Assembly (NCBI RefSeq): GCF_000153185.1
Contig: NZ_CH724150.1
Coordinates: forward strand, 551,223 to 588,008
Origin: Reinekea blandensis MED297
GTDB lineage: Bacteria; Pseudomonadota; Gammaproteobacteria; Pseudomonadales; Natronospirillaceae
Length of the DNA stretch: 36,786 nucleotides
Direction: 5' to 3'
This document shows, piece after piece, positions 453-19,063 of this stretch; position 1 is the stretch's first letter; every line of letters starts with the position of its first letter. The position numbers and the translations under genes are program-made. Below the pieces are notes generated by a model. It saw nothing but the letters and a program-made list of their open reading frames with translations, was not told where the DNA came from and did not search any database.

Positions 453-467
453 AATTCGACAAAATAA

Positions 468-510
468 CCGTAAAATCCTCTTATTTCGGGTAATTGTCCA
501 TAAAATCCTC
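468..510. repeat. Direct repeat in the pyk/nsrR-like intergenic region
   Basis: TAAAATCCTC occurs at 471-480 and again at 501-510. With the three preceding bases, 12 of 13 positions match. The copies are exactly 30 bp apart, close to three helical turns, so both would face the same side of the DNA. This suggests a regulator or paired binding site, but no known protein is recognised from the motif. Confidence 0.4.
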
Positions 511-543
511 AGTTGTTCTCTTGGGGGCGGTTGCTGGCAAAAA

Positions 544-558
544 TGTAATTTAATTACA
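544..558. promoter_or_regulatory. Candidate HexR operator
   Basis: TGTAATTTAATTACA is a 15-bp palindrome, perfect apart from its central base. It matches the published HexR consensus of gammaproteobacteria (TGTAATT-W-AATTACA). HexR is an RpiR-family repressor of central carbon metabolism that is released by KDPG, and pyruvate kinase genes are among its known targets. The site lies about 277 bp upstream of the pyk start. The identification is by motif only; no hexR gene is in the window. Confidence 0.7.
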
Positions 559-637
559 TAATTTAGTAACGAGAGTCGGGTTCGACCTCGTGGCCGCCTG
601 TGAGTGGGTGACGAATGCTGGAACCCGGCCGATAAAA

Positions 638-656
638 TGCGTATTTTAAATGCGTA
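638..656. promoter_or_regulatory. Candidate NsrR-type operator (autoregulation)
   Basis: TGCGTATTTTAAATGCGTA is an imperfect palindrome with AAATGC-type half sites around a central T. It resembles the NsrR consensus of two ATGCATTT-like arms separated by one base. It ends 77 bp before the ATG of the adjacent NsrR-like gene, a suitable position for autorepression. The left arm deviates from the E. coli consensus, so the regulator assignment is tentative. Confidence 0.45.
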
Positions 657-733
657 AATATGGCTTGGGAGCCTCAATTCCGCTAAGGTGTGACGTTGCC
701 CATTCCAATAATTATATCGACGGCAAGCGACCT

Positions 734-1198
734 ATGAAGATCAACAGTTTTACCAACTATTCGTTTCGTATTCTGATTATGCTGGGGGCTAACCCGGGTC
801 GGACCATTCCATTGTCAGAAATCGCCAGCGCTTATGGGATCTCCATTAATCACCTGAAAAAGGTCGCTGCGCGCCTGATTGAACAGTCTCTCGTGGATAC
901 CGTACGCGGGCGCAGTGGTGGTCTGGTGTTGAAAAAGGCACCTGAGGATATCCGGTTGGGCGAGATTTTCAGGATTTCACAGACAGACACGGCGTTTGTT
1001 GAGTGTATGGATGCAAGTTCGGAAGGGTGTGTCATATCACCCGTGTGTCGCTTGCAGGGGATCTTCCAGAAGGCACTGGCCCAGTTTATCGACACCATGG
1101 ATGGGTACACGCTGGCAGACCTGGTCGAAAATAAAGACGATATTAACGTCCATCTGAATCTTATTCCTGTCGTTGATGCCAGTCAGAACGCATCCTGA
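734..1198 (+). CDS. nsrR: Rrf2-family transcriptional regulator, NsrR-like
   Basis: This 154-residue protein has the Rrf2 layout: an N-terminal winged helix (MKINSFTNYSFRILIML; SINHLKKVAARL as recognition helix; wing VRGRSGGLVL), a dimerisation helix, and three cysteines at 91, 99 and 105 spaced C-X7-C-X5-C. The third lies in SPVCRL, and TLADLVE follows; both are typical of NsrR. In NsrR these cysteines hold an iron-sulphur cluster that nitric oxide destroys, releasing repression of NO-detoxifying genes. An upstream in-frame ATG at 650 would add 28 residues unlike any Rrf2 N-terminus and would start inside the candidate operator, so 734 is chosen. No NO-detoxification gene (hmp, ytfE, nor) is adjacent, so targets are elsewhere. 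A neighbouring Rrf2 type such as RsrR cannot be excluded. Confidence 0.8.
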   Translation: MKINSFTNYSFRILIMLGANPGRTIPLSEIASAYGISINHLKKVAARLIEQSLVDTVRGRSGGLVLKKAPEDIRLGEIFRISQTDTAFVECMDASSEGCVISPVCRLQGIFQKALAQFIDTMDGYTLADLVENKDDINVHLNLIPVVDASQNAS

Positions 1199-1371
1199 CG
1201 CGTCGCTTGTCTGGCGCAGAATGGAACCGTTCGTATCAAACCGGTCCGGTAATTGAGCAACCGATCACGTTTTTGAAATCCCCGAACGGGAGATGGGCGA
1301 TGCAAAATGCCAGTGTTCAGCTTACTATGGGCCATTAGAAGAGTTTGACGCAATCGGGAGTAGCGCAGTCA

Positions 1372-2697
1372 ATGAAAAAGTTTTTAGCGGTCGTGTTGGT
1401 CGGTGGTCTGTTGGCCGTGGTTGCCGGCTATTTTGGGATGCAATGGCGAGTGCAGAAGGTCGCTGACGATGTGTTGAGCTCGTTATTTTTTGTCGATGCA
1501 TCCTATCAGGACGTCGGAATCGATCTGAATGGCAACATCAACGTTAATAATCTGGAAATCTTTGTTCCGGCTACTCAGACCAATATCAGTATTGCAGGAA
1601 TCCGGTTCAGCACCGGCAGTTTGCTGAACACAGTGCTGCTAGAAAAACGTTTTAACGATGGCAAGCTGCCTGAAAACCTCAGTCTGACCATCAACAGCTT
1701 TTCAGCACCCCTCGATCGATCGATGATGTCGTCACTTGATGCGTTTTACGAGCCCGATGTCGCCTCTCAGATACAAGCACTGGGCTGTGGCCGAACGGTG
1801 GCGTTTGGCCCTGAAGCCTTGTATGACATGGGGCTGGGCTATCTGACTTTCGATCTGACCATGGGCTATCAATATAACCCGGGGTCTGATGAGTTGACGA
1901 GTACGACCGATCTTTACATCGATGGTGTCAGTAATCTTCGGATGGATCAGACCTATATTGGGTTTGGCAGTGTCATGTCAGATTATCGCAATGTGCTCAC
2001 TGGCTTTAATCCGGAGTCATTGACGCCGGTAAGCCTGTCGGTCGATCTGGTTGATTTGGGCTTTAATGCCTTGCGCAATGACTACTGTGCCGAACAGGCG
2101 GGACTGTCCGTCGCAGAATGGCAAGATCTGCATTTAGGGATGGTTGCCGAAGCGATGGATCAGGTCGGATTGTCGTCAGATGTTGATCTGTTAAAACTGT
2201 ACTCCGATTTAACGGCGCAGCGGGTCAGGGCGTCGTTGAGTTTGCGACCGTTGCCAGGTTTCAATATGGCAGACTTGGCCTTCTACGATACCGCACAGTT
2301 GCTGAATGTGCTGGATCTGGTTTTGGTCGTGAACAACGAAGAAGTGGCCGTTTCCGAGTTGTCCTGGACCGATGGCGGGCTGGAAAATCTCGATCTGGCT
2401 GAGTTGCGCCGGGCGTTCCGGGTCGGCACAGAAGATGAGGTGTCCACGACCGCTGAGTCATCCGAACCGGCATCGTCACCTCGGCGTATCTTAACGGAAG
2501 TGCCGGTGTCATCACTGGAACAACATGTGAATCGGAATATCCTGATCGAACGTCGTGATGGGCAAACCTTTTCGGGTGAGCTGATTCAGGTGAATGGTAA
2601 CCGAGTTGTGATTCGGACCCGTTTCTCATCCGGTTACACCGATCTGCCATTGAATCGAAGTGAGTTTTCAACGGCTAAGCTTTACCCGGAAGACTGA
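1372..2697 (+). CDS. Exported or membrane-anchored protein with Sm-like C-terminal domain, function unknown
   Basis: This is a 441-residue protein not recognised as any named family. The N-terminus (MKKFLAVVLVGGLLAVVAGYFGM) is a signal peptide or membrane anchor. The body is soluble-looking with many beta strands. It starts with a segment (VDASYQDVGIDLNGNINVNNLEIF) that resembles repeats of large periplasmic AsmA/lipid-transfer-like proteins, only as an impression. There are two cysteines in the middle (CGR and YCAEQ) and a low-complexity E/S/T linker near residues 360-375. The last 55 residues (ILIERRDGQTFSGELIQVNGNRVVIRT) look like an Sm-like or SH3-type small barrel. The ATG at 1372 is preceded by GGGAG at 1356-1360; a TTG at 1345 is in frame but lies before that site. 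A strong terminator follows, so it is probably monocistronic. Confidence 0.75.
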   Translation: MKKFLAVVLVGGLLAVVAGYFGMQWRVQKVADDVLSSLFFVDASYQDVGIDLNGNINVNNLEIFVPATQTNISIAGIRFSTGSLLNTVLLEKRFNDGKLPENLSLTINSFSAPLDRSMMSSLDAFYEPDVASQIQALGCGRTVAFGPEALYDMGLGYLTFDLTMGYQYNPGSDELTSTTDLYIDGVSNLRMDQTYIGFGSVMSDYRNVLTGFNPESLTPVSLSVDLVDLGFNALRNDYCAEQAGLSVAEWQDLHLGMVAEAMDQVGLSSDVDLLKLYSDLTAQRVRASLSLRPLPGFNMADLAFYDTAQLLNVLDLVLVVNNEEVAVSELSWTDGGLENLDLAELRRAFRVGTEDEVSTTAESSEPASSPRRILTEVPVSSLEQHVNRNILIERRDGQTFSGELIQVNGNRVVIRTRFSSGYTDLPLNRSEFSTAKLYPED

Positions 2698-6619: not shown

Positions 6620-7273
6620 TTAATCGATGTTAAGCACCTTATGAGTTTGCAGTGTCAGCCGCCATTGCGGATGTTCAAGACAGTACTGGACGCAGGCTTG
6701 AGTATTGTTGTTTTGTGCCGGGCTCAACTGTGCTTGAGTCCAGTCATTCAGCGGGCTCAAAAAGCGGTGCTGGGCATGGATGTGGCTGAACCGTTCCGGT
6801 TGGGCGTCAGCCTGAGGAAACACCAGTTTGAGTTCGTCGCAGGCCTCAATCACAACCTCGGCAGAGCCTTTTGGGCTGATGCAAACCCAATCCAATGAGG
6901 GTGGCAAAGGCAGCGTACCGTTTGACTCCACCGCGCATTCAAAGCCGACATCGTGCAGCGCAGCGATCAGCGTTTCATCGAGCTGCAGAGCCGGTTCACC
7001 GCCGGTAAAAACAACGAACCGATGCGCCTGATCCGCTGGCCAGAAATCAGCAATCCGCTGCGCCAGTTCACGAGCCTCGCGGAACTTGCCGCCATTTTGA
7101 CCGTCTGTACCGACAAAATCGGTATCGCAAAAACGGCAGATTGAGGTCGCTCGGTCTTTTTCACGACCATTCCAGAGATTGCAGCCAGAAAAACGACAAA
7201 AAACGGCCGGACGCCCGGTATGGAATCCTTCGCCCTGAAGGGTATAAAACATCTCTTTTACGCTGTAGGTCAT
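6620..7273 (-). CDS. queE: 7-carboxy-7-deazaguanine synthase QueE
   Basis: This 217-residue radical-SAM enzyme converts 6-carboxy-5,6,7,8-tetrahydropterin to 7-carboxy-7-deazaguanine in the queuosine/preQ0 pathway. It starts YSVKEMFYTLQGEGFHTGRPAVFCR, the QueE hallmark. Its cluster loop is C31-X14-C46-X2-C49, the modified CX14CX2C spacing of Burkholderia/Pseudomonas-type QueE, not classical CX3CX2C. FTGGEPALQ is the SAM-binding GGE motif, and VESNGT and SPK are substrate-site motifs. The start ATG overlaps the stop of the upstream PAS-GGDEF-EAL gene by 4 bp (7270-7273), so the two are probably translationally coupled. No queC, queD or queF is adjacent in this window. Confidence 0.95.
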   Translation of the reverse strand: MTYSVKEMFYTLQGEGFHTGRPAVFCRFSGCNLWNGREKDRATSICRFCDTDFVGTDGQNGGKFREARELAQRIADFWPADQAHRFVVFTGGEPALQLDETLIAALHDVGFECAVESNGTLPLPPSLDWVCISPKGSAEVVIEACDELKLVFPQADAQPERFSHIHAQHRFLSPLNDWTQAQLSPAQNNNTQACVQYCLEHPQWRLTLQTHKVLNID

Positions 7274-9843
7274 TCTGGTTCGCTGATTTGAGTTTTCAGA
7301 AGGGAGGCGAATTCTACATTTTTAAGCGGGGGAGAGTACAGATAACCCTGAAAAACCTGGCAACCCAGCTCGCGCAGCAGGGTGAGCTGATCTTCGGTTT
7401 CTACCCCTTCTGCGACGGTGTTCAGCTTGAGTTGGTCAGCCATGGCAATGATGGTGCGGACGATGGCGGTATCGTTGGCATCATGTTCGATGTCGCGGAC
7501 AAAGGACTGGTCGACCTTGAGCACATCCAATGGCAATCGTTTGAGATAGTTCAGATTGGAGTAGCCGGTACCGAAGTCATCAATTGAAAAGTGAATGCCC
7601 ATTTCGCGCAGCTCTTTCATGGCCGCCACTGTGTGATCGATGTTATCAATGATCATGCCTTCGGTGATTTCCAGATCAATCAGGTAAGCTGGAAGATCAT
7701 GTTCGTCCAGTACGGTACGTACTGTGCTGACGAAGTCGGCTTGCCGGAACTGCTGTGGGCTGACATTCAGGCTCAGGCGAAAATCCTCCCGGATCAACCC
7801 TTCTTTGCGCCAGTCTGCCAGCTGAGCGGCGGCCAGCTCGATGACCTTCTGCCCGACCAGCGGCATCATTTCACCGTCTTCAAGTAGCGGGATGAATTCG
7901 CCGGGTGAGACCATGCCACGAGAGGGGTGGGTCCAGCGCAGCAACGCTTCGGCGCCCAGTATTTTTCGGTCCCGGGCATCAACCTGTGGCTGAAAGACCA
8001 GATGAAACTCATCTCGGCGCAGCGCGTTGCGGGAGTCTTCTTTGAGTTCCAGTAACCGCTCGCTGGCTTCGGCCATTTCTTCTTGGAAGAGGATGATCCG
8101 GTTTTTCCCGGTTTCCTTCGCCCGATACATGGCCATGTCAGCATGGCTGAGCAGTTCAGAGGCGGTAAGGCTGTGATCATGGAAAAAGGCTAACCCCAAG
8201 CTGGCACTGACGATCAGTTGGTCACCCTGAGTCTGAAATGGCCGTTTCATGGCGTCCATCAGTTTAACGGATCGATCGTGTGCGATGTCGTACGCTTCCT
8301 GTTCTGTTCTTCCCAGATCTGTCATGCAGATGACAAACTCATCCCCGCCCAGTCGGGCAACCGTGTCCACTTCCCGGAAGGCATGTTTCAGGCGCTCTGC
8401 TACATCGGCCAGGACGGCATCGCCGGCGAGATGGCCTTTGGTGTCGTTAATGGTTTTAAAATTGTCCAGGTCCACAAAAATCAGTGCACCATACTGTTTG
8501 CTGCGCTGGGTTCGCAGCAGTGCCTGGTCCAGCCGATCCAAAAACAGGTGTCGGTTTGGCAAATCAGTCAGGGCATCATGGTAGGCAAGGTGTTGGATGT
8601 GTTCCTGATGCAGTTTGCGTTCAGTAATGTCGACCCCCACGCTGAGAATCGCTGGCTGGCCCTTGTACTGGATGCTGAGTTTGCGCATTTCCAGTGACAG
8701 ATGATGACCATCTGGCAGACGCCAGGATATTTCCGGCAGTAGAACGGCCTGGTTGGATTCCACCGCTTCCTGATCGGCTTCTTCCAGTAATTGTCGCGTT
8801 GCTGGCGATAGGGAGTCGAAAATGACGTTGTAGTGTTCCGGCTTTAAGTAGTCATCGGGGCTCAGACGATAGCTTTTCAAAAACGCCTGATTCGCCAGCA
8901 GCGGAACACCGTCCAGCGTTTTTACGTTAATCAGGTGTGGCAGGCTTTCAACCAGCGTGTTCAGGTTCTGGTAAGACTGTTCGGCCTCCTCAAGCGCCAG
9001 TTCGTTTTCTTTAATCAGAGTATCGAGCTGTTGCAATTGATGATTAATGGTGTCGGTCAGTGAGCCAATCTCATCGTCCCGATGGGCATAGATCAGCTGG
9101 AGACGCTGACCTTCCGTGGGTGATGTCTCAATAGCTTCCAGCTGTTGGGTTAGATTCGCCACCGGTTGAGTGACGACCCGATTAAACAGGTACACCAGGA
9201 CGGAGGTTAGCAGGCTCACCTCAATGACGTTCAGTATGAGTCGCATCCAGGTTGACTGCATCAGATCTTCAAATGGCAGGTGGTAGTTATAACGGATGGC
9301 TAACTGGCCGGTCAGGTCCGGAGTTTTGTCGGACAGCGGCAAAGGTATGTTGATGGTACGGATCGGATCGCCGAGCAATGGCTGCAGGTAAGTATGTCCC
9401 CGCTCGGTCATCTGGCTTCGCTGACCGTTTGCAATGACGGTACCGTGTTCATCAAGCAGTTGAACCTGCTGCACATAGCTATTTAACAGCAGGCTTTCGA
9501 CCAGTTGATCGGCAAGGCCATAATCGTAAGTGAAGACAGCATTGGCGGCTGGCAACCGAGTGGAAGTGATCATGCGTTCTAGGTCAAGCGCAACCGTGTC
9601 TTTATGTTGCTGGATTTCCAGCGTTAACTGAACACCAGTGACCAACACGCTCAGCAACAGCGCGGTTAGCAGGCCGGCCGTGGCAAGTCGGACCGACAAC
9701 CGGCTGGATGTCAGTTTTTTTAGGGAGCGGGTGGCTTTCATTCGGCGCTCTGATTCGGGTTCCGGAAATTGGGACTGCTTTTTCACCAACGCACTACCGG
9801 GAGCTGCCGGGGTCTGCATGGTCAGTTCGTTGTCTCGGAGCAT
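7270..9843 (-). CDS. Membrane PAS-GGDEF-EAL cyclic-di-GMP protein
   Basis: This is an 857-residue bifunctional-looking c-di-GMP enzyme. Order: cytoplasmic N-terminus; TM1 about 52-74; periplasmic sensor of about 125 residues; TM2 about 202-222; HAMP-like linker 222-280; coiled coil; PAS about 290-410 ending VDITERK; GGDEF domain about 415-585; EAL domain about 600-850. The diguanylate cyclase site GGDEF (499-503) is intact, with the inhibitory RxxD site (REVD 490-493) five residues before it. The phosphodiesterase site is also intact: EAL at 632-634 inside GAEALLRW, IDDFGTGYS and EGVET. Net activity cannot be told from sequence. Start is uncertain: ATGs at codons 9 and 35 are alternatives and none has a good ribosome site. 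It is upstream of queE with a 4-bp overlap. Confidence 0.93.
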   Translation of the reverse strand: MLRDNELTMQTPAAPGSALVKKQSQFPEPESERRMKATRSLKKLTSSRLSVRLATAGLLTALLLSVLVTGVQLTLEIQQHKDTVALDLERMITSTRLPAANAVFTYDYGLADQLVESLLLNSYVQQVQLLDEHGTVIANGQRSQMTERGHTYLQPLLGDPIRTINIPLPLSDKTPDLTGQLAIRYNYHLPFEDLMQSTWMRLILNVIEVSLLTSVLVYLFNRVVTQPVANLTQQLEAIETSPTEGQRLQLIYAHRDDEIGSLTDTINHQLQQLDTLIKENELALEEAEQSYQNLNTLVESLPHLINVKTLDGVPLLANQAFLKSYRLSPDDYLKPEHYNVIFDSLSPATRQLLEEADQEAVESNQAVLLPEISWRLPDGHHLSLEMRKLSIQYKGQPAILSVGVDITERKLHQEHIQHLAYHDALTDLPNRHLFLDRLDQALLRTQRSKQYGALIFVDLDNFKTINDTKGHLAGDAVLADVAERLKHAFREVDTVARLGGDEFVICMTDLGRTEQEAYDIAHDRSVKLMDAMKRPFQTQGDQLIVSASLGLAFFHDHSLTASELLSHADMAMYRAKETGKNRIILFQEEMAEASERLLELKEDSRNALRRDEFHLVFQPQVDARDRKILGAEALLRWTHPSRGMVSPGEFIPLLEDGEMMPLVGQKVIELAAAQLADWRKEGLIREDFRLSLNVSPQQFRQADFVSTVRTVLDEHDLPAYLIDLEITEGMIIDNIDHTVAAMKELREMGIHFSIDDFGTGYSNLNYLKRLPLDVLKVDQSFVRDIEHDANDTAIVRTIIAMADQLKLNTVAEGVETEDQLTLLRELGCQVFQGYLYSPPLKNVEFASLLKTQISEPE

Positions 9844-10004: not shown

Positions 10005-10742
10005 TTATTGAGCCTTCGCCGGGGACGTTAGTGTGGTCGCTCCGGAAATCATGTTTTCCGGGTACTGATAGGTGATCACGGCGTTGTACAACTTGCCGTC
10101 GCCATCCGGAACGTTGGTTAAGCCTTCATAGCTGACCAATTGCAGGGTTGGAATGTCATACGTTAAAACAATGGGGTTAACGAGTCGGGACAGTAAAAAG
10201 TTTTGTAACCTCAGCTCCAGGGTCAGCCGGTTTTGGGATTGGTCTACCGGAACGATCGTCAGGGGAATAAAGGTAGCGCGTCCGGCGGACAAAAATTGGA
10301 AATCGACGTCGGACCCTGAAACCAAGGTGTCGAAATGCTGCTGAATGAAGTAATGGAAGCCGCCATCGATCGCAAAAGATGCTTCTGGTAACGCCAGCTG
10401 AGTCTGTTGTTGTCGATCAATGACGATCTGATCGCTGATGATCCGGACTTTTTCTGTGTAAGGGCGCTGACGAAAGTCGACCACATAATCTGGCTGGCTC
10501 AGCCGATTGTACGTCAGTGTCTTCTCACCCAGCAGTTCACGGTCGGCACTTACATATTCGACGATTTCGGATAGGGGTTGGCCGTCATCGTCGAGCGTCA
10601 GACGATGAACTTCCTGATAAAGCGCCTGGCCGGTTTCAGGGTCAGAGGCCTGTCCGTAAAAGGTCAGAGTATCGGCAATGACGACCCCGCCGGTGGTCAT
10701 TGCAATCAGAAATACCACGATCTTTTGCCATCGCGCGTTCAT
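10005..10742 (-). CDS. Exported protein of unknown function, last gene of the light/lipid operon
   Basis: This 245-residue protein has a signal peptide (residues 1-23, WQKIVVFLIAMTTGGVVIADT). The mature part is rich in beta strands, has no cysteine, no transmembrane segment and no recognised catalytic motif. Its content (GQALYQEVHRLTLDDDGQPLSEIVEYVSAD; NPIVLTYDIPTLQLVSYEGLTNV) suggests a periplasmic beta-barrel or lipocalin-like fold, but this is only an impression. It starts 9 bp after the stop of the CFA-synthase-like gene on the same strand, so it is very probably co-transcribed and may bind, carry or process the modified lipids. No terminator is evident in the 161 bp between it and the GGDEF-EAL gene. 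Confidence 0.75.
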   Translation of the reverse strand: MNARWQKIVVFLIAMTTGGVVIADTLTFYGQASDPETGQALYQEVHRLTLDDDGQPLSEIVEYVSADRELLGEKTLTYNRLSQPDYVVDFRQRPYTEKVRIISDQIVIDRQQQTQLALPEASFAIDGGFHYFIQQHFDTLVSGSDVDFQFLSAGRATFIPLTIVPVDQSQNRLTLELRLQNFLLSRLVNPIVLTYDIPTLQLVSYEGLTNVPDGDGKLYNAVITYQYPENMISGATTLTSPAKAQ

Positions 10743-10751
10743 GTCAGTAAC

Positions 10752-11984
10752 TCAGTAATTAAACGATTTTTTGGCACCGGACTTACTGAAGACAACCTGA
10801 GATGTGCCAATGGCTCGCTCACGAAAGCCACCCTCACAGTAAGACAGGTAATAGCGCCACAGCCGGAAGAACTGTCGGTTATATCGCTCATGCGGAAGAG
10901 TCGGATAAGCGGCGATAAAACGTTCGTGCCAGTCTTTCAGAGTACGGGCGTAATGCTGCGTTATGTCTTCAAAATGATTGACCGTCATCTGAGTTTGATC
11001 GGCAATCTGTCGGGTGATCAGACTGATGCTGGGCAAGTGACCACCGGGAAAGATGTATTTGCGAATGAAATCGACCGATTTACGGTACTGATGATAGCGT
11101 TGATCTGGCATGGTGATGCACTGCAGTAGCGCAATACCGTCATCGCTCAGTAACTCGTTGATTTTACGAAAATACCCGGGCAGGTAGCGATGGCCAACAG
11201 CTTCGATCATTTCAATGGAGACCAACCGATCAAATTGACCGGTCAGTAAGCGATAATCGGTTTTTAACAGGGTGATCCTGTCGTCAAGGTTTTCGTCGCG
11301 TATGCGTTGCTGCGCATAGCGATACTGTTCTTCTGAAATGGTTGTTGTGGTTACCTTACAGCCGAAATGCTTTGCAGCATATATGGCCAGCGAGCCCCAG
11401 CCAGTGCCGATTTCAAGCAGGTGATTGTCAGGCCCCAGATGCAGTTTTTCACCGATCCGCTGCAGACGAAACTGCTGGGCCTCTTCCAGCGTACTGTCGT
11501 TAGAAGGGTAGATGGCTGACGAATACATCATGCTCTCATCGAGGAACCCTTCGAATAGATCATTACCGAGATCGTAATGTGCCTGAATGTTTCGCCGAGA
11601 GCCTTTGATGGTATTCCGGTTCAGCCAATGGGCCACAGACATTCCGGTTTTACGCAGCCACTGTAAAGGCGCGCTTTGAGATTCGCCCAGGTTGGCCGCG
11701 AATACCTGAACGACCTTGGTTAAATCGGGAGAGTCCCAGTCGCCTTCAATAAAACTTTCCGCAGCGGCCATGTCACCGCCCGTCAGCATCTCTCGGAATA
11801 CCCGACCATTGTGGACGGTGACTTCAGCGTGAGGACCTTGACCTTCGGGCTCGCCAAAGGTTTGTGAGGTTTCCTGAAAATTAACTTTGAGGCTGCCATG
11901 GCGAAGATGTTTCAGCAGGCTTGAAGCAGCTTTCCAGCTCAGGGTGTACTGTTCCTGGCGGCTGGTGGTGTTGGCAGTCGTCAT
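10752..11984 (-). CDS. Cyclopropane-fatty-acid-synthase-like lipid methyltransferase
   Basis: This 410-residue SAM-dependent enzyme of the CFA synthase family acts on double bonds of phospholipid acyl chains. Seen: N-terminal lipid-binding region; HYDLGNDLFEGFLDESMMYSSAIYP; SAM site LEIGTGWGSLAIYAA; VSIEMIEAVGH; KYIFPGGHLPS; YLSYCEGGFRERAIGTSQVVFSK. Two residues that bind the catalytic bicarbonate in E. coli Cfa differ: the Cys of YSCAY is Ser (YSSAIY), and the His of LLHTI is Gln (LLQCI). The Glu (EMIEAVG) is kept. Such variants sit beside FAD-oxidoreductase and DUF1365 genes in ChrR-type singlet-oxygen clusters. Relatives there include UfaM of furan fatty acid synthesis, which makes methylated and not cyclopropane chains. 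The start is ATG 11984, overlapping the DUF1365 stop by 4 bp; an upstream ATG at 12095 would lie deep inside DUF1365. Confidence 0.88.
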   Translation of the reverse strand: MTTANTTSRQEQYTLSWKAASSLLKHLRHGSLKVNFQETSQTFGEPEGQGPHAEVTVHNGRVFREMLTGGDMAAAESFIEGDWDSPDLTKVVQVFAANLGESQSAPLQWLRKTGMSVAHWLNRNTIKGSRRNIQAHYDLGNDLFEGFLDESMMYSSAIYPSNDSTLEEAQQFRLQRIGEKLHLGPDNHLLEIGTGWGSLAIYAAKHFGCKVTTTTISEEQYRYAQQRIRDENLDDRITLLKTDYRLLTGQFDRLVSIEMIEAVGHRYLPGYFRKINELLSDDGIALLQCITMPDQRYHQYRKSVDFIRKYIFPGGHLPSISLITRQIADQTQMTVNHFEDITQHYARTLKDWHERFIAAYPTLPHERYNRQFFRLWRYYLSYCEGGFRERAIGTSQVVFSKSGAKKSFNY

Positions 11985-12811
11985 GATGTCTTTTCCTTTT
12001 TCTTTTTGTTGGGGTGCGAATAGAACGGCACCCCTTTCAGCCATAACTTGAGGGCATTCCAATAAATACCGCTTGCAACAGTTACGGTCATCCACGGAAA
12101 GCGGATGAGTGTGCTGCGTACCGATGACGGTGTGATTGGCTTTGGTTTGAGCATCAAAGTGGCGTCAAACACCTTCTTGCCATGCTGCCAGTTCTCCAGG
12201 TGGATAAGGTTGTCTGGCTGCTCGGGAGTTTTAAATCGCCAGTCGTATTGCATGTTCATCGGATGGAACGGCGAGATGTGGAAATGCTTGTCGAGTTGAA
12301 ACCGAAAGCGTCCGCGACCCATTCGAAACGGGTTAATTCCGCCTTCGGCGGTGCCGGTGTTCAGAACGTATTGAAAGCGCTCGCTCCAGGGAGTGTTGGT
12401 AATTTCCGGCATGATCGCGATCAGTTCATCATTATGGTTAAAGGCATAATAAAAAGTGACAGGATTCATGATGTAGCCGAGCGTGCGCAGGTTTGTCAGC
12501 ATGCAGACGCGCGAAATTTCTGCGGGTGTGAGTTTGGTTTGTGCGCATATGCGATCGATGACCGCCTCTTTTAAGGGCCGGTCAGGTGGGCCGAAATAAT
12601 CGGCTCGTTTAAAGGTGCACCAGCCGCGTTTTTCTTGCGTTAATAAACGAGACCGGATACTGATTTCGGCCAACTCATCGAGGTCGAGATACCACATGAA
12701 CAGCGGGTACTTCAGTACATGCGGTTTAGGGCTGTAGCGTCGATGCCGAACCCAGCCGACCATCAGGCGGCTGTGTTCTTTGGGGGCCGGTATCTCATAG
12801 TTCTCAGGCAT
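11981..12811 (-). CDS. DUF1365 family protein
   Basis: This 276-residue DUF1365 protein shows the family signatures: WVRHRRYSPKPHVLKYPLFMWYLDLDEL at the N-terminus, NLRTLGYIMNPVTFYYAF near the middle, and FHISPFHPMNMQYDWRF. The C-terminus ends in a lysine run (NKKKKEKTS). The biochemical role is not established. The family almost always sits between an FAD oxidoreductase and a CFA-synthase-like gene, and is inferred to act in acyl-chain modification. Here it overlaps the FAD gene by 8 bp and the Cfa-like gene by 4 bp, so the three products are made in a coupled way. Confidence 0.9.
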   Translation of the reverse strand: MPENYEIPAPKEHSRLMVGWVRHRRYSPKPHVLKYPLFMWYLDLDELAEISIRSRLLTQEKRGWCTFKRADYFGPPDRPLKEAVIDRICAQTKLTPAEISRVCMLTNLRTLGYIMNPVTFYYAFNHNDELIAIMPEITNTPWSERFQYVLNTGTAEGGINPFRMGRGRFRFQLDKHFHISPFHPMNMQYDWRFKTPEQPDNLIHLENWQHGKKVFDATLMLKPKPITPSSVRSTLIRFPWMTVTVASGIYWNALKLWLKGVPFYSHPNKKKKEKTS

Positions 12812-14105
12812 GGGCTGACTCAGATTCCTTTAGAGGTTTAACCGATGCGGTTTTTTGCACATCGTCGACGACACGTAATGCTGAGTTGACGCCGTCTTCA
12901 TGGAAGCCATTAAACCAGTAAGCGCCACAGAAATGTGTCCGGTTTTTGTTTCCAATGCGATGATATTGCTGCTGCGCGGCCACGCTGCCCTGACTGAAGA
13001 TTGGATGGCCATAGTTGAACCGCGCGATAATTTTGTCTTTATCGATTTTTTCAGTTCGGTTCAGCGTAACGCAAAAAGTTACGGGTGCATCGTCAAAGCG
13101 CTGCAGGATGTTCATGTTGTAAGTCAGGCTGGCCGGTGCGTTTTTGTCATCGGACAGGTGATAGTTCCAGGCCGCCCAGGCTTTGCGACGTTTTGGTAAC
13201 AGGCGTTCGTCGGTGTGTAAAACCACTTCGTTTTTAGAGTAGGGCAGAGCCCCGAGGATGGCGTGTTCGTCTTCAGTTGGGCTGTCGAGCAAGGCTAAAG
13301 CCTGATCGCTGTGACAAGCGAAAATCACTTCGTCGAACGTTTCTTCGGGTTTGTCCTCGAACTGCACAATCACATGTTCGGGATTACGCACGACGCTGCT
13401 GATCCGGGTGTTGGTATGGACTCGATCCCGAAACGGCGCTATCAGTGGGTCGACATAGGCGCGAGAGCCCTGGTCCAGTACATACCATTGCGGACGGTCT
13501 TTAACTGAAAGCAAACCATGGTTTTTAAAGAACCGAACGAAGAACAGAGCCGGAAAGTCCAGCATGTCAGCTTCACCACTGGACCAGATGGCCGCGCCCA
13601 TGGGAACAATGTATTTGTTGATAAACATGGAACCCATGTTGAGCTGTTTAAAATAATCTCTTAACGTCAGCGAGTCGTCTAACTTGCCTTGCTCCAGATC
13701 TTCAAGACTTTGTTTATTGAACTTCAGAATATCCCGGATCATGCCGTAAAAACGCGGAGAAAGGAGGTTGCTTCGCTGGGCAAAAAGGGTATCGAGATTG
13801 TGACCGTTGTACTCAAGGCCGGTTTGCTCATCGGTGACTGAAAAGCTCATTTCAGTCGGTATGCGCTTAAGGTTCAGCGGCTCGATGAGTTTATTGAAGT
13901 TGTGATAGACCCAGTCGTTGTAGACAATAAAGCCGGTGTTGACGGGGAAAGTTTTTCCGTCAATGACGACGTCATGAGTATGAGTGTGACCGCCAATGTA
14001 ATCATTGCTTTCATAGAGCTCTATGTCGAAATCTTTATGGAGATAACGGGCGGCGGTCAACCCGGAGATGCCGCCACCGATAATGGCGATACGTTTTTTG
14101 GTCAT
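12804..14105 (-). CDS. FAD-dependent amine-oxidase-like oxidoreductase
   Basis: This 433-residue protein belongs to the NAD(P)/FAD-binding, amine-oxidase-like group (COG2907 type). The Rossmann dinucleotide motif GGGISGLTAARYL is near residue 9-21, followed by ESNDYIGGHTHT and the family-typical FPVNTGFIVYNDWVYHNF. The C-terminal FAD motif lies in CGAYWFNGFHEDGVNSALRVVDD. The substrate is not known. Given its partners, it probably oxidises or desaturates membrane acyl chains modified by the Cfa-like enzyme. The start is ATG 14105, preceded by AAGGA 10 nt upstream, which decides against the in-frame ATG at 14141 that would overlap phr. The gene is 22 bp downstream of phr. Confidence 0.88.
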   Translation of the reverse strand: MTKKRIAIIGGGISGLTAARYLHKDFDIELYESNDYIGGHTHTHDVVIDGKTFPVNTGFIVYNDWVYHNFNKLIEPLNLKRIPTEMSFSVTDEQTGLEYNGHNLDTLFAQRSNLLSPRFYGMIRDILKFNKQSLEDLEQGKLDDSLTLRDYFKQLNMGSMFINKYIVPMGAAIWSSGEADMLDFPALFFVRFFKNHGLLSVKDRPQWYVLDQGSRAYVDPLIAPFRDRVHTNTRISSVVRNPEHVIVQFEDKPEETFDEVIFACHSDQALALLDSPTEDEHAILGALPYSKNEVVLHTDERLLPKRRKAWAAWNYHLSDDKNAPASLTYNMNILQRFDDAPVTFCVTLNRTEKIDKDKIIARFNYGHPIFSQGSVAAQQQYHRIGNKNRTHFCGAYWFNGFHEDGVNSALRVVDDVQKTASVKPLKESESAHA

Positions 14106-14127
14106 GTCGTCAGTGTCCTTGTCTGCG

Positions 14128-15525
14128 CTAGGTTGCCGCATGACTGCCCAGCGCTTTAAATTTATCTAGCGTGTCCTGCCGAGCCTTAGAATAGTCTGTC
14201 AGCGGTTTTGGATAAGAGCTGACTGATAAAGCACGTTTGTGATCGTGTAGCAAGGCAGGCTTTACATCATTCAGTTCTGTTACAAAAGTAAGGATAAACT
14301 GGCCATTCGGATCAAAGCGCTTGCTTTGCTGATACGGATTGAAAATCCGGAAGTAAGGCACTGCATCAACCCCGGTCGACGCGACCCACTGCCATCCGCC
14401 ATTGTTAGCGGCAAAGTCAAAATCAGCGAGATGTTCTGCAAACCAGGCTTCACCTTGTCGCCAGTCCTGTTGCAGAATCTTGACCAGATACATGCCGGTT
14501 ACCATGCGCAACCGGTTGTGCATCCAGCCTGTTTCACGCAGTTGGCGCATGGCGGCATCAACAATCGGGACGCCCGTTTTTCCTTCCCGCCAACGTTCCA
14601 GCCAGGTTTCGTTTTTCTGCCACGGAAATGCGTCCCACTTTTCATTGTACGGTTCACCGAGACAAAGGCGGGGCGTATGGAAGAGCAGGTACTTATAAAA
14701 GTCGCGCCAGATGATTTCTGAAAAAAATGTGTCCGACGCCAGTGAAATATGGTGGCGATGCAGAGTATGAGCAACCTGACGAGAACTGGTGCAGCCAAGC
14801 GCCAATGCCGCAGACAGTTGGGAGGTGCCATTGTCGGCTGGAAAGTCACGACGGTCAGCATAGTCCCGGACTTCTTCGCAAAATGCGTCTAATCGGGTTA
14901 GTGCCTGATCTTCGGTCACGGGTAGCTGCAAAGGATTCTGCCAGTTCGGAAGGTCTTTCATTGCCAGTGGAGAGACCTTCAGGGCCGGACCCGCCTTGCG
15001 AGGTGGGAACGTTGCCAGGTGGTCGATCGAGAACTGACGTAACAGCGATTTTTTGTAAGCCGTAAATACCTTATAAACCTGACCTTGCTGAGTCAGGTGG
15101 TGTGCCGGGTCGATAAAGTACAGGTCATGATAGCGATGCAGTTCAACGCTCTTTGAAAGTTGCTGTGCAACACGGTCATCGCGGCGCAATTCATTCCATC
15201 CGGGTTCGGTGTGATAATGGATGGCTGTTATCTGATGAGATTGGCAGTAGTTCACCATCTGCTCGGCGCATTCAGTCCACCACGATACGGATAACACATC
15301 GAGTGGTATACCCAGCTTTGCAAGTTTTTGATGCAGTGCCTGCAAAGCGCTGAAGGTGGCCGCAATCTTTGCATCGCCAGCCCCATGAGATCGCCACTGT
15401 GCATCACTCCAAAAGAAAAGGGCCCGGACAGGCGTCTGTTGTTGCTTGGCACGGTTCAGTGCCTGGAACAGAGCCTCATGATCCGAAACCCGAAGGTCAT
15501 TGCGAAACCAAACCAGCTGGGTCAT
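14128..15525 (-). CDS. phrB: Deoxyribodipyrimidine photolyase (class I CPD)
   Basis: This 465-residue photolyase uses blue or near-UV light to split cyclobutane pyrimidine dimers in DNA. The N-terminal antenna domain begins LVWFRNDLRVSDHEAL. The FAD domain has NGTSQLSAALALGCTSSRQV, SEIIWRDFYKYLL, the highly conserved TGVPIVDAAMRQLRETGWMHNRLRM, and FDFAANNGGWQWVASTGVDAVPYFRIFNP. These contain the electron-transfer tryptophans and dimer-contact residues of class I enzymes. It is the second gene of the operon and overlaps the DUF523-DUF1722 stop by 4 bp (ATGA at 15525-15522). E. coli also carries a DUF1722 gene (ybgA) next to phrB, so the pairing is conserved. Confidence 0.96.
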   Translation of the reverse strand: MTQLVWFRNDLRVSDHEALFQALNRAKQQQTPVRALFFWSDAQWRSHGAGDAKIAATFSALQALHQKLAKLGIPLDVLSVSWWTECAEQMVNYCQSHQITAIHYHTEPGWNELRRDDRVAQQLSKSVELHRYHDLYFIDPAHHLTQQGQVYKVFTAYKKSLLRQFSIDHLATFPPRKAGPALKVSPLAMKDLPNWQNPLQLPVTEDQALTRLDAFCEEVRDYADRRDFPADNGTSQLSAALALGCTSSRQVAHTLHRHHISLASDTFFSEIIWRDFYKYLLFHTPRLCLGEPYNEKWDAFPWQKNETWLERWREGKTGVPIVDAAMRQLRETGWMHNRLRMVTGMYLVKILQQDWRQGEAWFAEHLADFDFAANNGGWQWVASTGVDAVPYFRIFNPYQQSKRFDPNGQFILTFVTELNDVKPALLHDHKRALSVSSYPKPLTDYSKARQDTLDKFKALGSHAAT

Positions 15526-16493
15526 ACGACATTCTTATATTGATTAAGGTTTTCCGGGTAGGGGAACCACACACTTTGTTGCCACAGGTACTCGTTATTG
15601 TCGCTGTGAATGCGGGCGTAGTGGCGAATAAGCGACAGCGGGACGACGTAAGGCGTGGTGCCCTGCTGGTAAAGCTTGATCTGGTCAACAATCGATTGTT
15701 TTTCTTCGGTTGAAATGTGGGTCTTGAGAAAACCGAGTAAATGATAAAGGGCGTTTGCGCGTTGGCCGGTGGAGCTGACTTTTTTCAGCGCCATCATGAC
15801 AGTCTGTATGTACTGCGATGCGTTGCGTTGCAGCTTTTCGCGAGTACCAAGATCGGACAGGAGTTTGCCGGAGTCTTTGTAGCCCTGATAGCTGTGCAGC
15901 ATGATCAGGAACTTGTGACGTGAGTGAAACTCAATCAATGATTTTGCCGACTCAAAGGGTCGTTGCGTACGCCATTCATGGTAAAGGTAGAGCCGGGTCA
16001 AAAAGCTTTCCGCGAGCGGTGCATCGCTTAAGCGGCCAGCTTCCTCAACAGGCAGTAAAGGATTGTGCTTGATCAGCTCATTGGCAAAAATCCCCACACC
16101 ATTTTTTTCCGGCACAGGCGATTGGCTGCCGTAAACCTTAACGCGCTCCATTCCGCAACTTGGTGAACCCTGCATCAGAATAAACCCATCGAGTTCAGCA
16201 ATAGCTTCAGCATTCCGGGAAAAGTAGTCTTTCAATGGTTCGGTGACATCGTCTTCCTGGCGGTCTGAATCCAGCGCCAATATCTGGTCGTCGCGTTCGA
16301 CCAGGCGTAATGTAGGCCGGGGTACCGGCAGTCCGATCCCGACCTCTGGACAGAATGATTTGAAGTCCGCGACCGAAGCCAGTTCAGAATTTATCCATTG
16401 ATGTTTTTTGTGACCGCCGTTGAACCTTACAGGCTCACCAAGCAGGCATGCACTGATGCCGATTGAGAGTTTGTTCGTCATAGAGTTGGGCAT
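15522..16493 (-). CDS. DUF523-DUF1722 protein, RudS/TudS-type thiouridine desulfidase
   Basis: This is a 323-residue fusion of an N-terminal DUF523 (about 8-165) and a C-terminal DUF1722 (about 185-310). DUF523 proteins are now known as TudS [4Fe-4S] desulfidases of thiouracil; the fused DUF523-DUF1722 form (RudS) removes sulphur from 4-thiouridine in tRNA. The three cluster cysteines are C16 (ISACLLGE), C48 (FCPEVG) and C113 (GSPSCG). PLRP-like GLPVPRPTLRLV and FHSRHKFLIMLHS are the other signatures. s4U8 absorbs near-UV and crosslinks tRNA, so pairing with photolyase makes functional sense. It is the first gene of the operon. ATG 16493 or ATG 16481 could be the start; neither has a clear ribosome site. 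Confidence 0.88.
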   Translation of the reverse strand: MPNSMTNKLSIGISACLLGEPVRFNGGHKKHQWINSELASVADFKSFCPEVGIGLPVPRPTLRLVERDDQILALDSDRQEDDVTEPLKDYFSRNAEAIAELDGFILMQGSPSCGMERVKVYGSQSPVPEKNGVGIFANELIKHNPLLPVEEAGRLSDAPLAESFLTRLYLYHEWRTQRPFESAKSLIEFHSRHKFLIMLHSYQGYKDSGKLLSDLGTREKLQRNASQYIQTVMMALKKVSSTGQRANALYHLLGFLKTHISTEEKQSIVDQIKLYQQGTTPYVVPLSLIRHYARIHSDNNEYLWQQSVWFPYPENLNQYKNVV

Positions 16494-16534: not shown

Positions 16535-16636
16535 AGTCGTTGTTGAACGAGTGTCTTGTTTGTTTTTACGGTAGCAGGTTCCGGTCGGATGATTGCCGGA
16601 AGTGATAAAAAATCCGAGATTCCCTGATTTCTACGG

Positions 16637-16670: not shown

Positions 16671-16797
<127 letters not shown>

Positions 16798-17029: not shown

Positions 17030-19063
17030 ATGTCCTATCAGGTATTGGCCAGAAAATGGCGTCCGGGAACCTTTGACGAGATGGTGGGTCAGGTGCATGT
17101 GCTGAAGGCCCTGGTCAATGCCCTTGATCAGGAGCGGTTGCACCACGCTTATCTGTTTACCGGAACCCGAGGGGTCGGCAAAACCACCATCGCACGGCTG
17201 CTCGCGAAAAGCCTGAACTGTGAGCAGGGCGTCAGTTCCAAGCCCTGTGGTCAGTGTGCGTCGTGTCGCGAAATCGCTGAAGGTCGGTTTGTGGACCTGA
17301 TCGAAGTGGATGCGGCCAGCCGAACCAAGGTCGAGGACACCCGCGAGTTGCTGGAGAATGTCCAGTACGCGCCAACCCGGGGTCGTTTTAAGGTCTATCT
17401 GATCGACGAAGTGCACATGCTGTCAACCAGCAGTTTTAATGCTCTATTAAAAACGCTGGAAGAGCCACCGCCGCATGTGAAGTTCCTGCTGGCGACCACC
17501 GATCCACAAAAACTGCCGGTCACGGTCTTATCTCGCTGTCTGCAATTTAATCTTAAAAACATGAGTCGTGAGCATATTGTTCAGCATTTGAACCACATTC
17601 TGACTGTGGAGCAGGTGCCGTTCGATGAACCATCTCTTTGGGCGATCGCCGAGGGTGCTCAGGGTTCTATGCGCGATGCGTTGAGCTTGACCGACCAGGC
17701 CATCGCTTTTGGTCATGGTGCGCTGGCAGAGCAGGAAGTGGCGGCCATGCTGGGTACGGTCGACCTCAAGCGGGTTCTGAACCTGGTGCGAGCGCTCTTG
17801 CAAAAGGACGCCGACGGATTATTGGCCATGGTCAGTGAGCTGGATGAGCACACCCCGGACTACCAGACCTTGCTTACTGAGTTGATGTCGACCTTGCATC
17901 GGGTTGCCATTGCTCAGGCCGTCCCGTCGGCCATCAGTAATCATAAGGGCGATCGGGATGCCATTATGGCGCTGGCCAAAGCGGGCTATGCAGAAGATAT
18001 TCAGCTGTATTACCAGATTGCCGGTAAATCGAAGGGTGAGCTGAGTTTGGCACCGAGTGAGCGTGCCGGTTTCGAAATGACGCTATTGCGTATGCTGGCG
18101 TTCAGTCAGACACCACCTTCGTCAATTGATACACTGCCACCGTTAACAACACAGGCCCCAGAAACAACACAGCCTTCAGCAGCGCCTGTGAAACCGGCCG
18201 TATCGACTCCTGAGCCCGTCTCTATACCCGCTTCTGAGGAAGTGGCGCCAGACGTTGGGCCCTCAGAAACAACCTCTGAAGCGGCGGTGCCGTCTGAGCC
18301 CGTTAACGCCGCGGAGACTCCGGTAAAAAAGACCCCAGCTGAGTCCGTAGACGCGGCCGAAGTGCTGACTCAGCCAGCCAGTCAACCGGAACCAGCGACT
18401 GTACCTGAACCTGTATCAGAACCGGAACCTGAACCTGAAATCACAGTACAGGAAGACCCACATCCGGCAGGAGCCGTGGACACAACGTCGATGCTTGAGC
18501 CGGTTGCTGAACAACCGCCGATAGAAACACCGACCGAGGAAAATCTGCTCAGTGAGCCTGACAGTGCCTCTGACCCCGAGAGTAAGGTTGTTGAAACCGA
18601 ACCTCAGACCGCCGCAGAGCTCAGTGATGTCGCTACCTGGCCGGATACAGACCTCGATGCCGACCCGGTATTCTGGTGGCAGGTGACATTGCATCGACTG
18701 GGGTTGTCCGGCATGACCAAAACCCTGTTTGCGCACAGTCAATGGCGGGGCTATGAAAATGGTCAGCTGAGCCTTGTGATTTCGCCAAACTACCGCAAAA
18801 TTATGAATGACAGTCACCAACAATATCTGCTGCAGGCCATTACCGATTGGCTGCCAGATTGTCAGTCGTTGACTTACGAGTTTGGTGCTGTCGATAAAAC
18901 CCCACAGCTGTGGCTCGACCAGTTGGTGCAGGCCGCGAATGATCGTGCCTATCAGCACCTGAAAGCCGATGCTTTCGTTGAGACACTGATAAACGAATTT
19001 AAAGGCGAGCTCATTCAGGAGTCCGCCGTTCCTAACAACAGTCCGATTCCTTCAGGAGCTTAA
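17030..19063 (+). CDS. dnaX: DNA polymerase III subunits tau and gamma
   Basis: This 677-residue tau subunit is the clamp-loader ATPase and the organiser of the replisome. Residues 1-370 are the AAA+ core: Walker A GTRGVGKT (45-52), zinc cysteines C64, C73, C76 and C79, Walker B LIDEVHM (124-130), and SRC sensor (168-170). A Pro/Glu-rich linker of about 160 residues follows. The C-terminal domain (about 540-660) binds the polymerase alpha subunit and DnaB. A frameshift signal at 18325-18374 would also give gamma of 437 residues (434 in frame, then D-P-S and a stop); E. coli gamma is 431. It is first in the dnaX-ybaB-recR operon; ybaB starts 2 nt after the stop. Confidence 0.97.
18325..18374 (+). 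promoter_or_regulatory. Programmed -1 ribosomal frameshift signal in dnaX
   Basis: The slippery heptamer A-AAA-AAG (18325-18331) is in the zero frame as GTA-AAA-AAG, the arrangement of the E. coli dnaX site. Six nucleotides later comes a perfect 8-bp stem, GCTGAGTC (18338-18345) with GACTCAGC (18367-18374). A purine-rich GCGGAGA lies about 8 nt upstream and can act as the stimulatory anti-16S pairing site. After a -1 slip the codons read GAC CCC AGC TGA, stopping at 18340-18342. This cassette makes the shorter gamma protein alongside tau. Confidence 0.9.

Follow-up and report, generated by a model that had tools for sequence, protein, structure and literature searches.

We describe a stretch of 36,786 nucleotides from Reinekea blandensis MED297 (contig NZ_CH724150.1, positions 551,223 to 588,008 of the forward strand; the window in what follows) in which six genes on the minus strand (10005–16493) combine a predicted tRNA 4-thiouridine (s4U) desulfidase of the RudS type, a photolyase, three predicted lipid-modifying enzymes and an exported protein. 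We consider it likely that these genes form a photo-oxidative stress operon of the RpoE-ChrR regulon, the singlet-oxygen regulon governed by an ECF11-type (ECF: extracytoplasmic function) sigma factor, with the regulator genes encoded elsewhere in the genome. The sequence-only reading of this DNA had proposed a single light-damage programme acting on three macromolecules. The programme is well supported because the gene order is conserved, a predicted RpoE promoter precedes the first gene, the genome contains an rpoE-chrR pair, a congener combines regulator and cassette in one cluster, and a comparable operon in Shewanella is under RpoE2 control (PMC4336711; this source and most of the others are cited from partial text). 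In contrast, the action on tRNA, DNA and membranes remains something we infer.

Results

In transcription order, the operon encodes a RudS-type TudS-DUF1722 protein, the predicted s4U desulfidase (15522–16493; Pfam 2-thiour_desulf and DUF1722, match to TudS 6z92); a class I cyclobutane pyrimidine dimer photolyase (Phr, 14128–15525; Pfam DNA_photolyase and FAD_binding_7); a UfaD-like flavin adenine dinucleotide (FAD) oxidoreductase, predicted to be a fatty acyl desaturase (12804–14105; Pfam Amino_oxidase/NAD_binding_8, adjoining ufaO in relatives); a UfaO-like DUF1365 protein, predicted to be a fatty acyl monooxygenase (11981–12811; E 1.2e-73); a UfaM-like enzyme predicted to be an S-adenosylmethionine-dependent fatty acyl methyltransferase (10752–11984; Pfam CMAS); and an exported protein of an undescribed family (10005–10742; signal peptide by inspection). 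The list of open reading frames (ORFs) of the window and the Pfam domains confirm the gene set, strand and families claimed in the sequence-only reading. Recomputing the junctions with ATG as the start codon of all six genes returned the same lengths as before: a 4-bp overlap, a 22-bp gap, an 8-bp overlap, a 4-bp overlap and a 9-bp gap. Two of these lengths, the gap of 22 bp and the later 4-bp overlap, presuppose internal ATGs at 14105 and 11984; the longest ORFs for these two genes begin at 14141 (ATG) and 12095 (GTG). Between 9700 and 17100, terminator-like matches occurred at chance level (9 observed vs 8.8 expected), and a sigma-70 promoter scan did not rise above chance (2 observed vs 5.5 expected).

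Since a small bacterial signal recognition particle (SRP) RNA lies on the opposite strand, divergent from the operon (16688–16784, plus strand; Rfam RF00169, 76.1 bits), the control region of the operon comprises about 190 nt. By pattern search, this region contains a predicted RpoE-ChrR (ECF11-type) promoter, TCATCC-N16-CGTA (16567–16592, minus strand), 73 nt before the RudS ATG. It agrees with 9 of 10 consensus positions, one mismatch from TGATCC-N16-CGTA (shuffle P 0.001). Across the genome we counted 14 TSATCC-N16-CGTA sites vs 5 for the reversed control. Six of the 14 fall outside ORFs over 110 aa, and four of these six have an ORF start no more than about 100 nt away, namely that of RudS, rpoE, an RpoH gene or a gene for a metallo-beta-lactamase-fold protein. 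Four relatives from the same family carry TAATCC, GAATCC, AGATCC or AGATCT followed by N16-CGTA before RudS, with 8–9 of 10 positions matched and shuffle P values of 0.001, 0.003, 0.0006 and 0.01.

The sequence-only reading had stated that no ChrR, RpoE-type sigma or LitR/CarH gene is adjacent to the operon. This holds for the window but not at the level of the genome: a search for chrR located an rpoE-chrR pair on another contig, preceded by TGATCC-N16-CGTA. The encoded ChrR combines a cupin domain with an HxxxCxxC motif and scores 143.2 bits against the curated TIGR02451 cut-off of 124.5; the ECF sigma gene adjoins it. Two relatives (L094 and L095; labels beginning with L or G are ours for the stretches and genomes compared) have the same neighbours around rpoE-chrR.

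Two strict TGATCC-N16-CGTA sites outside the operon were recorded in their own right. On L086, the site (1526–1501) lies about 101 nt before rpoH (1400–504, minus strand), the product of which scores over the NCBIfam cut-off for RpoH; the arrangement is reminiscent of the R. sphaeroides cascade from RpoE to RpoHII (PMC6852236). On L076, a gene (457–1473, minus strand) for a membrane-like protein of 338 aa, which neither Pfam nor NCBIfam matches, begins 28 nt after a site that falls in an overlapping antisense ORF.

Conservation of the cassette was surveyed in 145 genomes of the order with a co-location threshold of 10 kb. UfaO was found in 106 genomes, RudS in 91, the exported protein in 50 and a strong ChrR in 72 (of 97 genomes matched at E 0.001, these 72 have best matches up to about 2e-15, and the rest resemble other cupins; one weaker second ChrR place in G047 is included in the count). 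UfaO lies near ChrR in 45 genomes, near RudS in 30 and near both in six. The gene order is not due to chance, because the cassette recurs in relatives, in many of which RudS, Phr and the lipid trio share one direction. In the congener G138, rpoE, chrR and the genes for RudS, a SnoaL-like protein, UfaD, UfaO and UfaM form one cluster on one strand. In L109, rpoE-chrR is divergent from RudS-Phr-SnoaL-UfaD-UfaO-UfaM, with an ECF motif before RudS. In four other genomes of the family (G048, G111, G005 and G084), rpoE-chrR and the cassette are at separate places, and the strict promoter precedes the pair in three of the four. Sister genera contain two extra operon genes, SnoaL-like and DUF2878 (13457–13882 and 9630–10154 in L035, both minus strand), that are not in the operon of the window.

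4-Thiouridine is a near-UV chromophore of tRNA, and ThiI, the maker of s4U, is encoded in the same genome. Both RudS domains exceed their Pfam cut-offs, and residues C16, C48, C113, E50, R59, S110 and S112 are invariant among 14 aligned relatives. The activity of RudS_KT requires the equivalents of these residues, that is, three cluster cysteines, the catalytic Glu, two Ser and an Arg (PMC11417400). F24 stands at the position of Tyr25, where a Tyr to Phe mutant of the studied homologue keeps full activity (PMC11417400). Ser241 is kept, and Thr242 occupies a column with Arg in 11 of the 14 relatives. By motif (RudS_KT not being in the alignment), this column probably corresponds to Arg244, which binds tRNA in the studied homologue; in an Arg244 to Met mutant about half of the s4U remained (PMC11417400). 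The photolyase aligns over its full length (2–458) to E. coli photolyase 1dnp (E 8.8e-98); against NCBIfam PRK10674 it reaches 431.6 bits, below the cut-off of 506.

The ufaD-, ufaO- and ufaM-like genes are contiguous in the window, and the same trio occurs in L033 and L034; a UfaO query against contigs returned two loci at 44–45% identity. The R. sphaeroides route to a furan fatty acid consists of methylation by UfaM, desaturation by UfaD and addition of O2-derived oxygen by UfaO, and RPA2569–2571 of R. palustris are sufficient for this product (PMC7380195). The methyltransferase had been labeled Cfa-like in the sequence-only reading, and its place in the CMAS family stands. However, we rejected an identity as canonical cyclopropane fatty acid (CFA) synthase, because the enzyme scores under the NCBIfam cut-offs (303 of 400 bits for Cfa, 215 of 650 bits for CfaB) and carries Gln288 at the position of His266 when aligned to the E. 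coli enzyme, with Glu261 and Tyr345 kept. The bicarbonate ligands of E. coli CFA synthase are Glu239, His266 and Tyr317 (PMC11387697). Gln occupies the His266 column in 34 of 35 aligned CMAS relatives, all 34 of which adjoin ufaO, and L049, the single relative that has His, lacks an adjoining ufaO; in the stretch of L067 (Gln, beside ufaO), ufaD was not detected. The window gene is also the only strong CMAS match of the genome, the next reaching 38.9 bits over half the model. Bicarbonate is thought to accept the proton in cyclopropane closure, and the exchange of His266 for Gln would therefore, in our interpretation, fit an enzyme whose product is a methylated olefin. From its sequence, the enzyme looks like a UfaM and not like a cyclopropane synthase. 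If it were an ordinary cyclopropane synthase nonetheless, the trio would make no furan fatty acid. E. coli CFA synthase 6bqc is indeed its best PDB match, Cfa is its top NCBIfam match, though under the cut-off, and overexpressed Halomonas UfaM in E. coli was also accompanied by cyclic acids (PMC12089945). With the scores and the Gln column on the other side, and with ufaD and ufaO adjoining the gene as in R. palustris RPA2569–2571 (PMC7380195), we regard this possibility as improbable.

The exported protein returned no useful match in Pfam, NCBIfam, PADLOC or profile-against-PDB searches and, for E values of 10 or less, no PDB sequence, and no Pfam family is common to more than one of 30 members of its family. 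Invariant residues of the family include G30, E44, K74, P84, D126, G128, F129, Y195 and G207; an AlphaFold2 single-sequence model is beta-rich and poor (mean pLDDT 49). The gene occurs in 50 genomes of the order; UfaO is encoded in 49 of them (Fisher 9.5e-8), and in 43 the two genes are no more than 10 kb apart. The first search used a single protein, from which divergent homologues may escape, and the 57 of 106 UfaO genomes that gave no match are therefore an upper bound for absence. At the level of the class, the family profile matched 16 of 274 genomes; UfaO is present in 10 of these 16 (Fisher 0.0036), within about 5 kb in five, and the remaining six gave no UfaO match. The family is therefore linked with the lipid trio but does not depend on it.

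Two flanking genes complete the picture. A 677-aa DnaX-like ORF (17030–19063) lies downstream of the SRP RNA. Downstream of the operon, a HAMP-PAS-GGDEF-EAL protein (Pfam) is encoded at 7270–9843 on the minus strand, and the operons of L035 and L036 are followed by a comparable gene, for a protein of 822 aa.

Discussion

Co-transcription, induction and each enzyme activity in this organism are properties that we infer from sequence, and several observations weigh against assigning the operon to the RpoE-ChrR regulon. The -35 element of the predicted promoter is imperfect, and the window contains four further sites that match 9 or more of the 10 positions and have an exact CGTA, counting both strands, so the motif alone proves little. 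Two of the four relatives with a site before RudS (L035 and L036) are congeners and hence do not count as independent cases. For G084 (L097), the pattern search returned no rpoE promoter, and six cassettes (L045, L046, L052, L070, L113 and L114) have neither an ECF motif nor a LitR box before RudS. Operon membership is not fixed, because the G138 cluster lacks the photolyase and the exported gene. Finally, Thr242 in RudS may lessen tRNA binding.

The operon could instead, as in Pseudomonas, be controlled by LitR/CarH (light sensing linked to adenosyl-B12 or LOV), with the RpoE-like motif as a chance match. P. mendocina provides a precedent (PMC9758184), and a LitR-type gene stands beside RudS in 15 of 31 non-redundant RudS loci. 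(The 31 come from 32 rows with complete RudS after L116, from the same genome as L044, was dropped; L037–L039, in which RudS is cut, were replaced by L117–L119, and L053, without ufaO in its stretch, is included.) Nine of these 15 loci have a LitR box of at least 10 of 12 positions before RudS and none has an ECF motif of at least 8 of 10. The 13 loci without adjacent LitR show the reverse, with an ECF motif in seven, a LitR box in none and neither in six; in the other three, RudS lies directly behind rpoE-chrR. Shuffle rates per region were 0.011 for the ECF motif and 0.008 for the LitR box; the contrast between regulator and motif gives Fisher P values of 0.0014 and 0.0008, for groups set post hoc and with kinship ignored. 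Where LitR adjoins RudS, a LitR box thus often appears to stand in place of the ECF motif. The window belongs to the loci without LitR: there is no LitR gene in or beside it and no TGTACA-N12-TGTACA box of at least 9 of 12 positions before its RudS, and on these grounds LitR control was rejected for this operon. No LitR of the B12 type was found in the genome either, because the sole B12-binding_2 match falls in an ORF whose translation resembles methionine synthase MetH; LitR proteins lacking that domain were not searched for. We therefore judge LitR/CarH control to be very improbable here.

An arrangement in two or more transcription units, with RudS-phr for DNA and tRNA photoprotection and ufaD-ufaO-ufaM plus the exported gene for lipids, is unlikely, if slightly less so than the other two alternatives. 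RudS and UfaO also occur apart, being within 10 kb in 30 of the 80 genomes that have both. Moreover, a second TCATCC-N16-CGTA (12083–12108, minus strand) lies inside the 3' end of ufaO, before ufaM, and recurs in L035, L036 and L071. However, this inner match sits on conserved UfaO codons (GTA encodes Val in the window and in all three relatives; the motif expression used for this check fitted 9 of 37 sequences), and protein constraint may explain it; we considered it as a promoter but do not claim it as one. Short or overlapping junctions, terminators at chance level and the co-directional RudS, Phr and trio of many relatives also speak for one unit.

As an operon of the RpoE-ChrR regulon, the six genes could work as follows. 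Light and a photosensitiser would produce singlet oxygen or organic hydroperoxides, upon which the zinc anti-sigma factor ChrR would be inactivated and RpoE released. RpoE would transcribe its own operon and, from TCATCC-N16-CGTA, the genes from RudS to the exported protein. RudS would strip 4-thiouridine from tRNA and the photolyase would repair pyrimidine dimers, while acyl chains would be methylated by UfaM, desaturated by UfaD and oxidised by UfaO, giving furan fatty acids. By analogy with R. sphaeroides, these lipids may be consumed by singlet oxygen and may aid the turnover of ChrR. The exported protein could serve the lipid branch as an accessory factor in the periplasm.

Work on RudS, on furan fatty acids and on RpoE-ChrR has been published separately, and the three subjects meet in this operon. 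The surprise is limited because the basic design has already been described in Shewanella and Pseudomonas; less familiar are s4U erasure inside a singlet-oxygen regulon, the swap of regulators on one cassette and the uncharacterised exported family. The arrangement predicts that RudS is an enzyme of the singlet-oxygen regulon, two regulators appear to alternate on the cassette, and the Gln/His difference may separate UfaM from CFA synthases. More tentatively, and with the odds somewhat against all parts holding jointly, s4U erasure might be an arm of the RpoE-ChrR response in the order, replacement of the promoter might have passed control of the cassette between RpoE-ChrR and LitR, two unrelated light-stress regulators, and the exported family might act in the periplasm as a new component in the handling of furan fatty acids or in ChrR signalling.

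Comparison with Known Systems

A close likeness is to SO_3386–SO_3374 of S. oneidensis, where a 'ybgA' (DUF1722) gene comes first, phrB and cfa are present, an RpoE2 promoter precedes the operon and the SO_3386 transcript depends on RpoE2 (PMC4336711). There too, rpoE2-chrR is at a separate locus. The Shewanella operon has more genes, its promoter is TGATCC-N16-CGTA, from which the window -35 differs by one mismatch, and SO_3386, annotated there as ybgA (PMC4336711), is a candidate TudS-DUF1722 fusion. If SO_3386 is a RudS, the 'ybgA' result is in effect the link between RudS and RpoE-ChrR. Among the publications listed, we found none that ties RudS by name to this regulon, in a search that most subscription journals lay outside. 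RudS has been described in light-responsive operons with PhrB photolyase and LitR, in a text from which the terms 'ChrR' and 'singlet oxygen' are absent (PMC11417400).

In the pmlR1 region of P. mendocina and the pplR1 region of P. putida, light-inducible genes for phrB, a short-chain dehydrogenase/reductase (SDR), an FAD oxidoreductase and ufaM occur with hypotheticals (PMC9758184). The window shares the photolyase, the FAD oxidoreductase and ufaM; these regions are controlled by a class II LitR through TGTACA-N12-TGTACA and contain the SDR, whereas the window operon has neither LitR, box nor SDR. PSPTO_1121–PSPTO_1114 of P. syringae (phrB, SDR, flavoprotein, RSP1090 homologue, cfa) is induced by an RpoE-ChrR-type sigma factor, and its phrB promoter, aGATCC-N16-CGTA, responds to singlet oxygen and, like that of the window, has one -35 mismatch (PMC5507510). 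This locus differs in its SDR, in the site lying before phrB and in that the available text names no RudS member.

The lipid genes correspond to the methyltransferase, flavoprotein and DUF1365 set of R. sphaeroides ufaM/ufaD/ufaO and R. palustris RPA2569–2571 (PMC7380195). These organisms are alphaproteobacterial, no RudS or exported protein is named for them in the available text, and R. sphaeroides ufaM lies apart from ufaD/ufaO, which are contiguous with it in the window. The R. sphaeroides genes belong to the ChrR regulon (PMC7380195), and furan fatty acid genes are part of the core RpoE-ChrR regulon (PMC6852236). In V. cholerae, ChrR mediates blue-light control with the motif TGATC-N16-18-CGTAW (PMC5241685). 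The design of the operon is thus already published in Shewanella and Pseudomonas, and the window is a further example of it.

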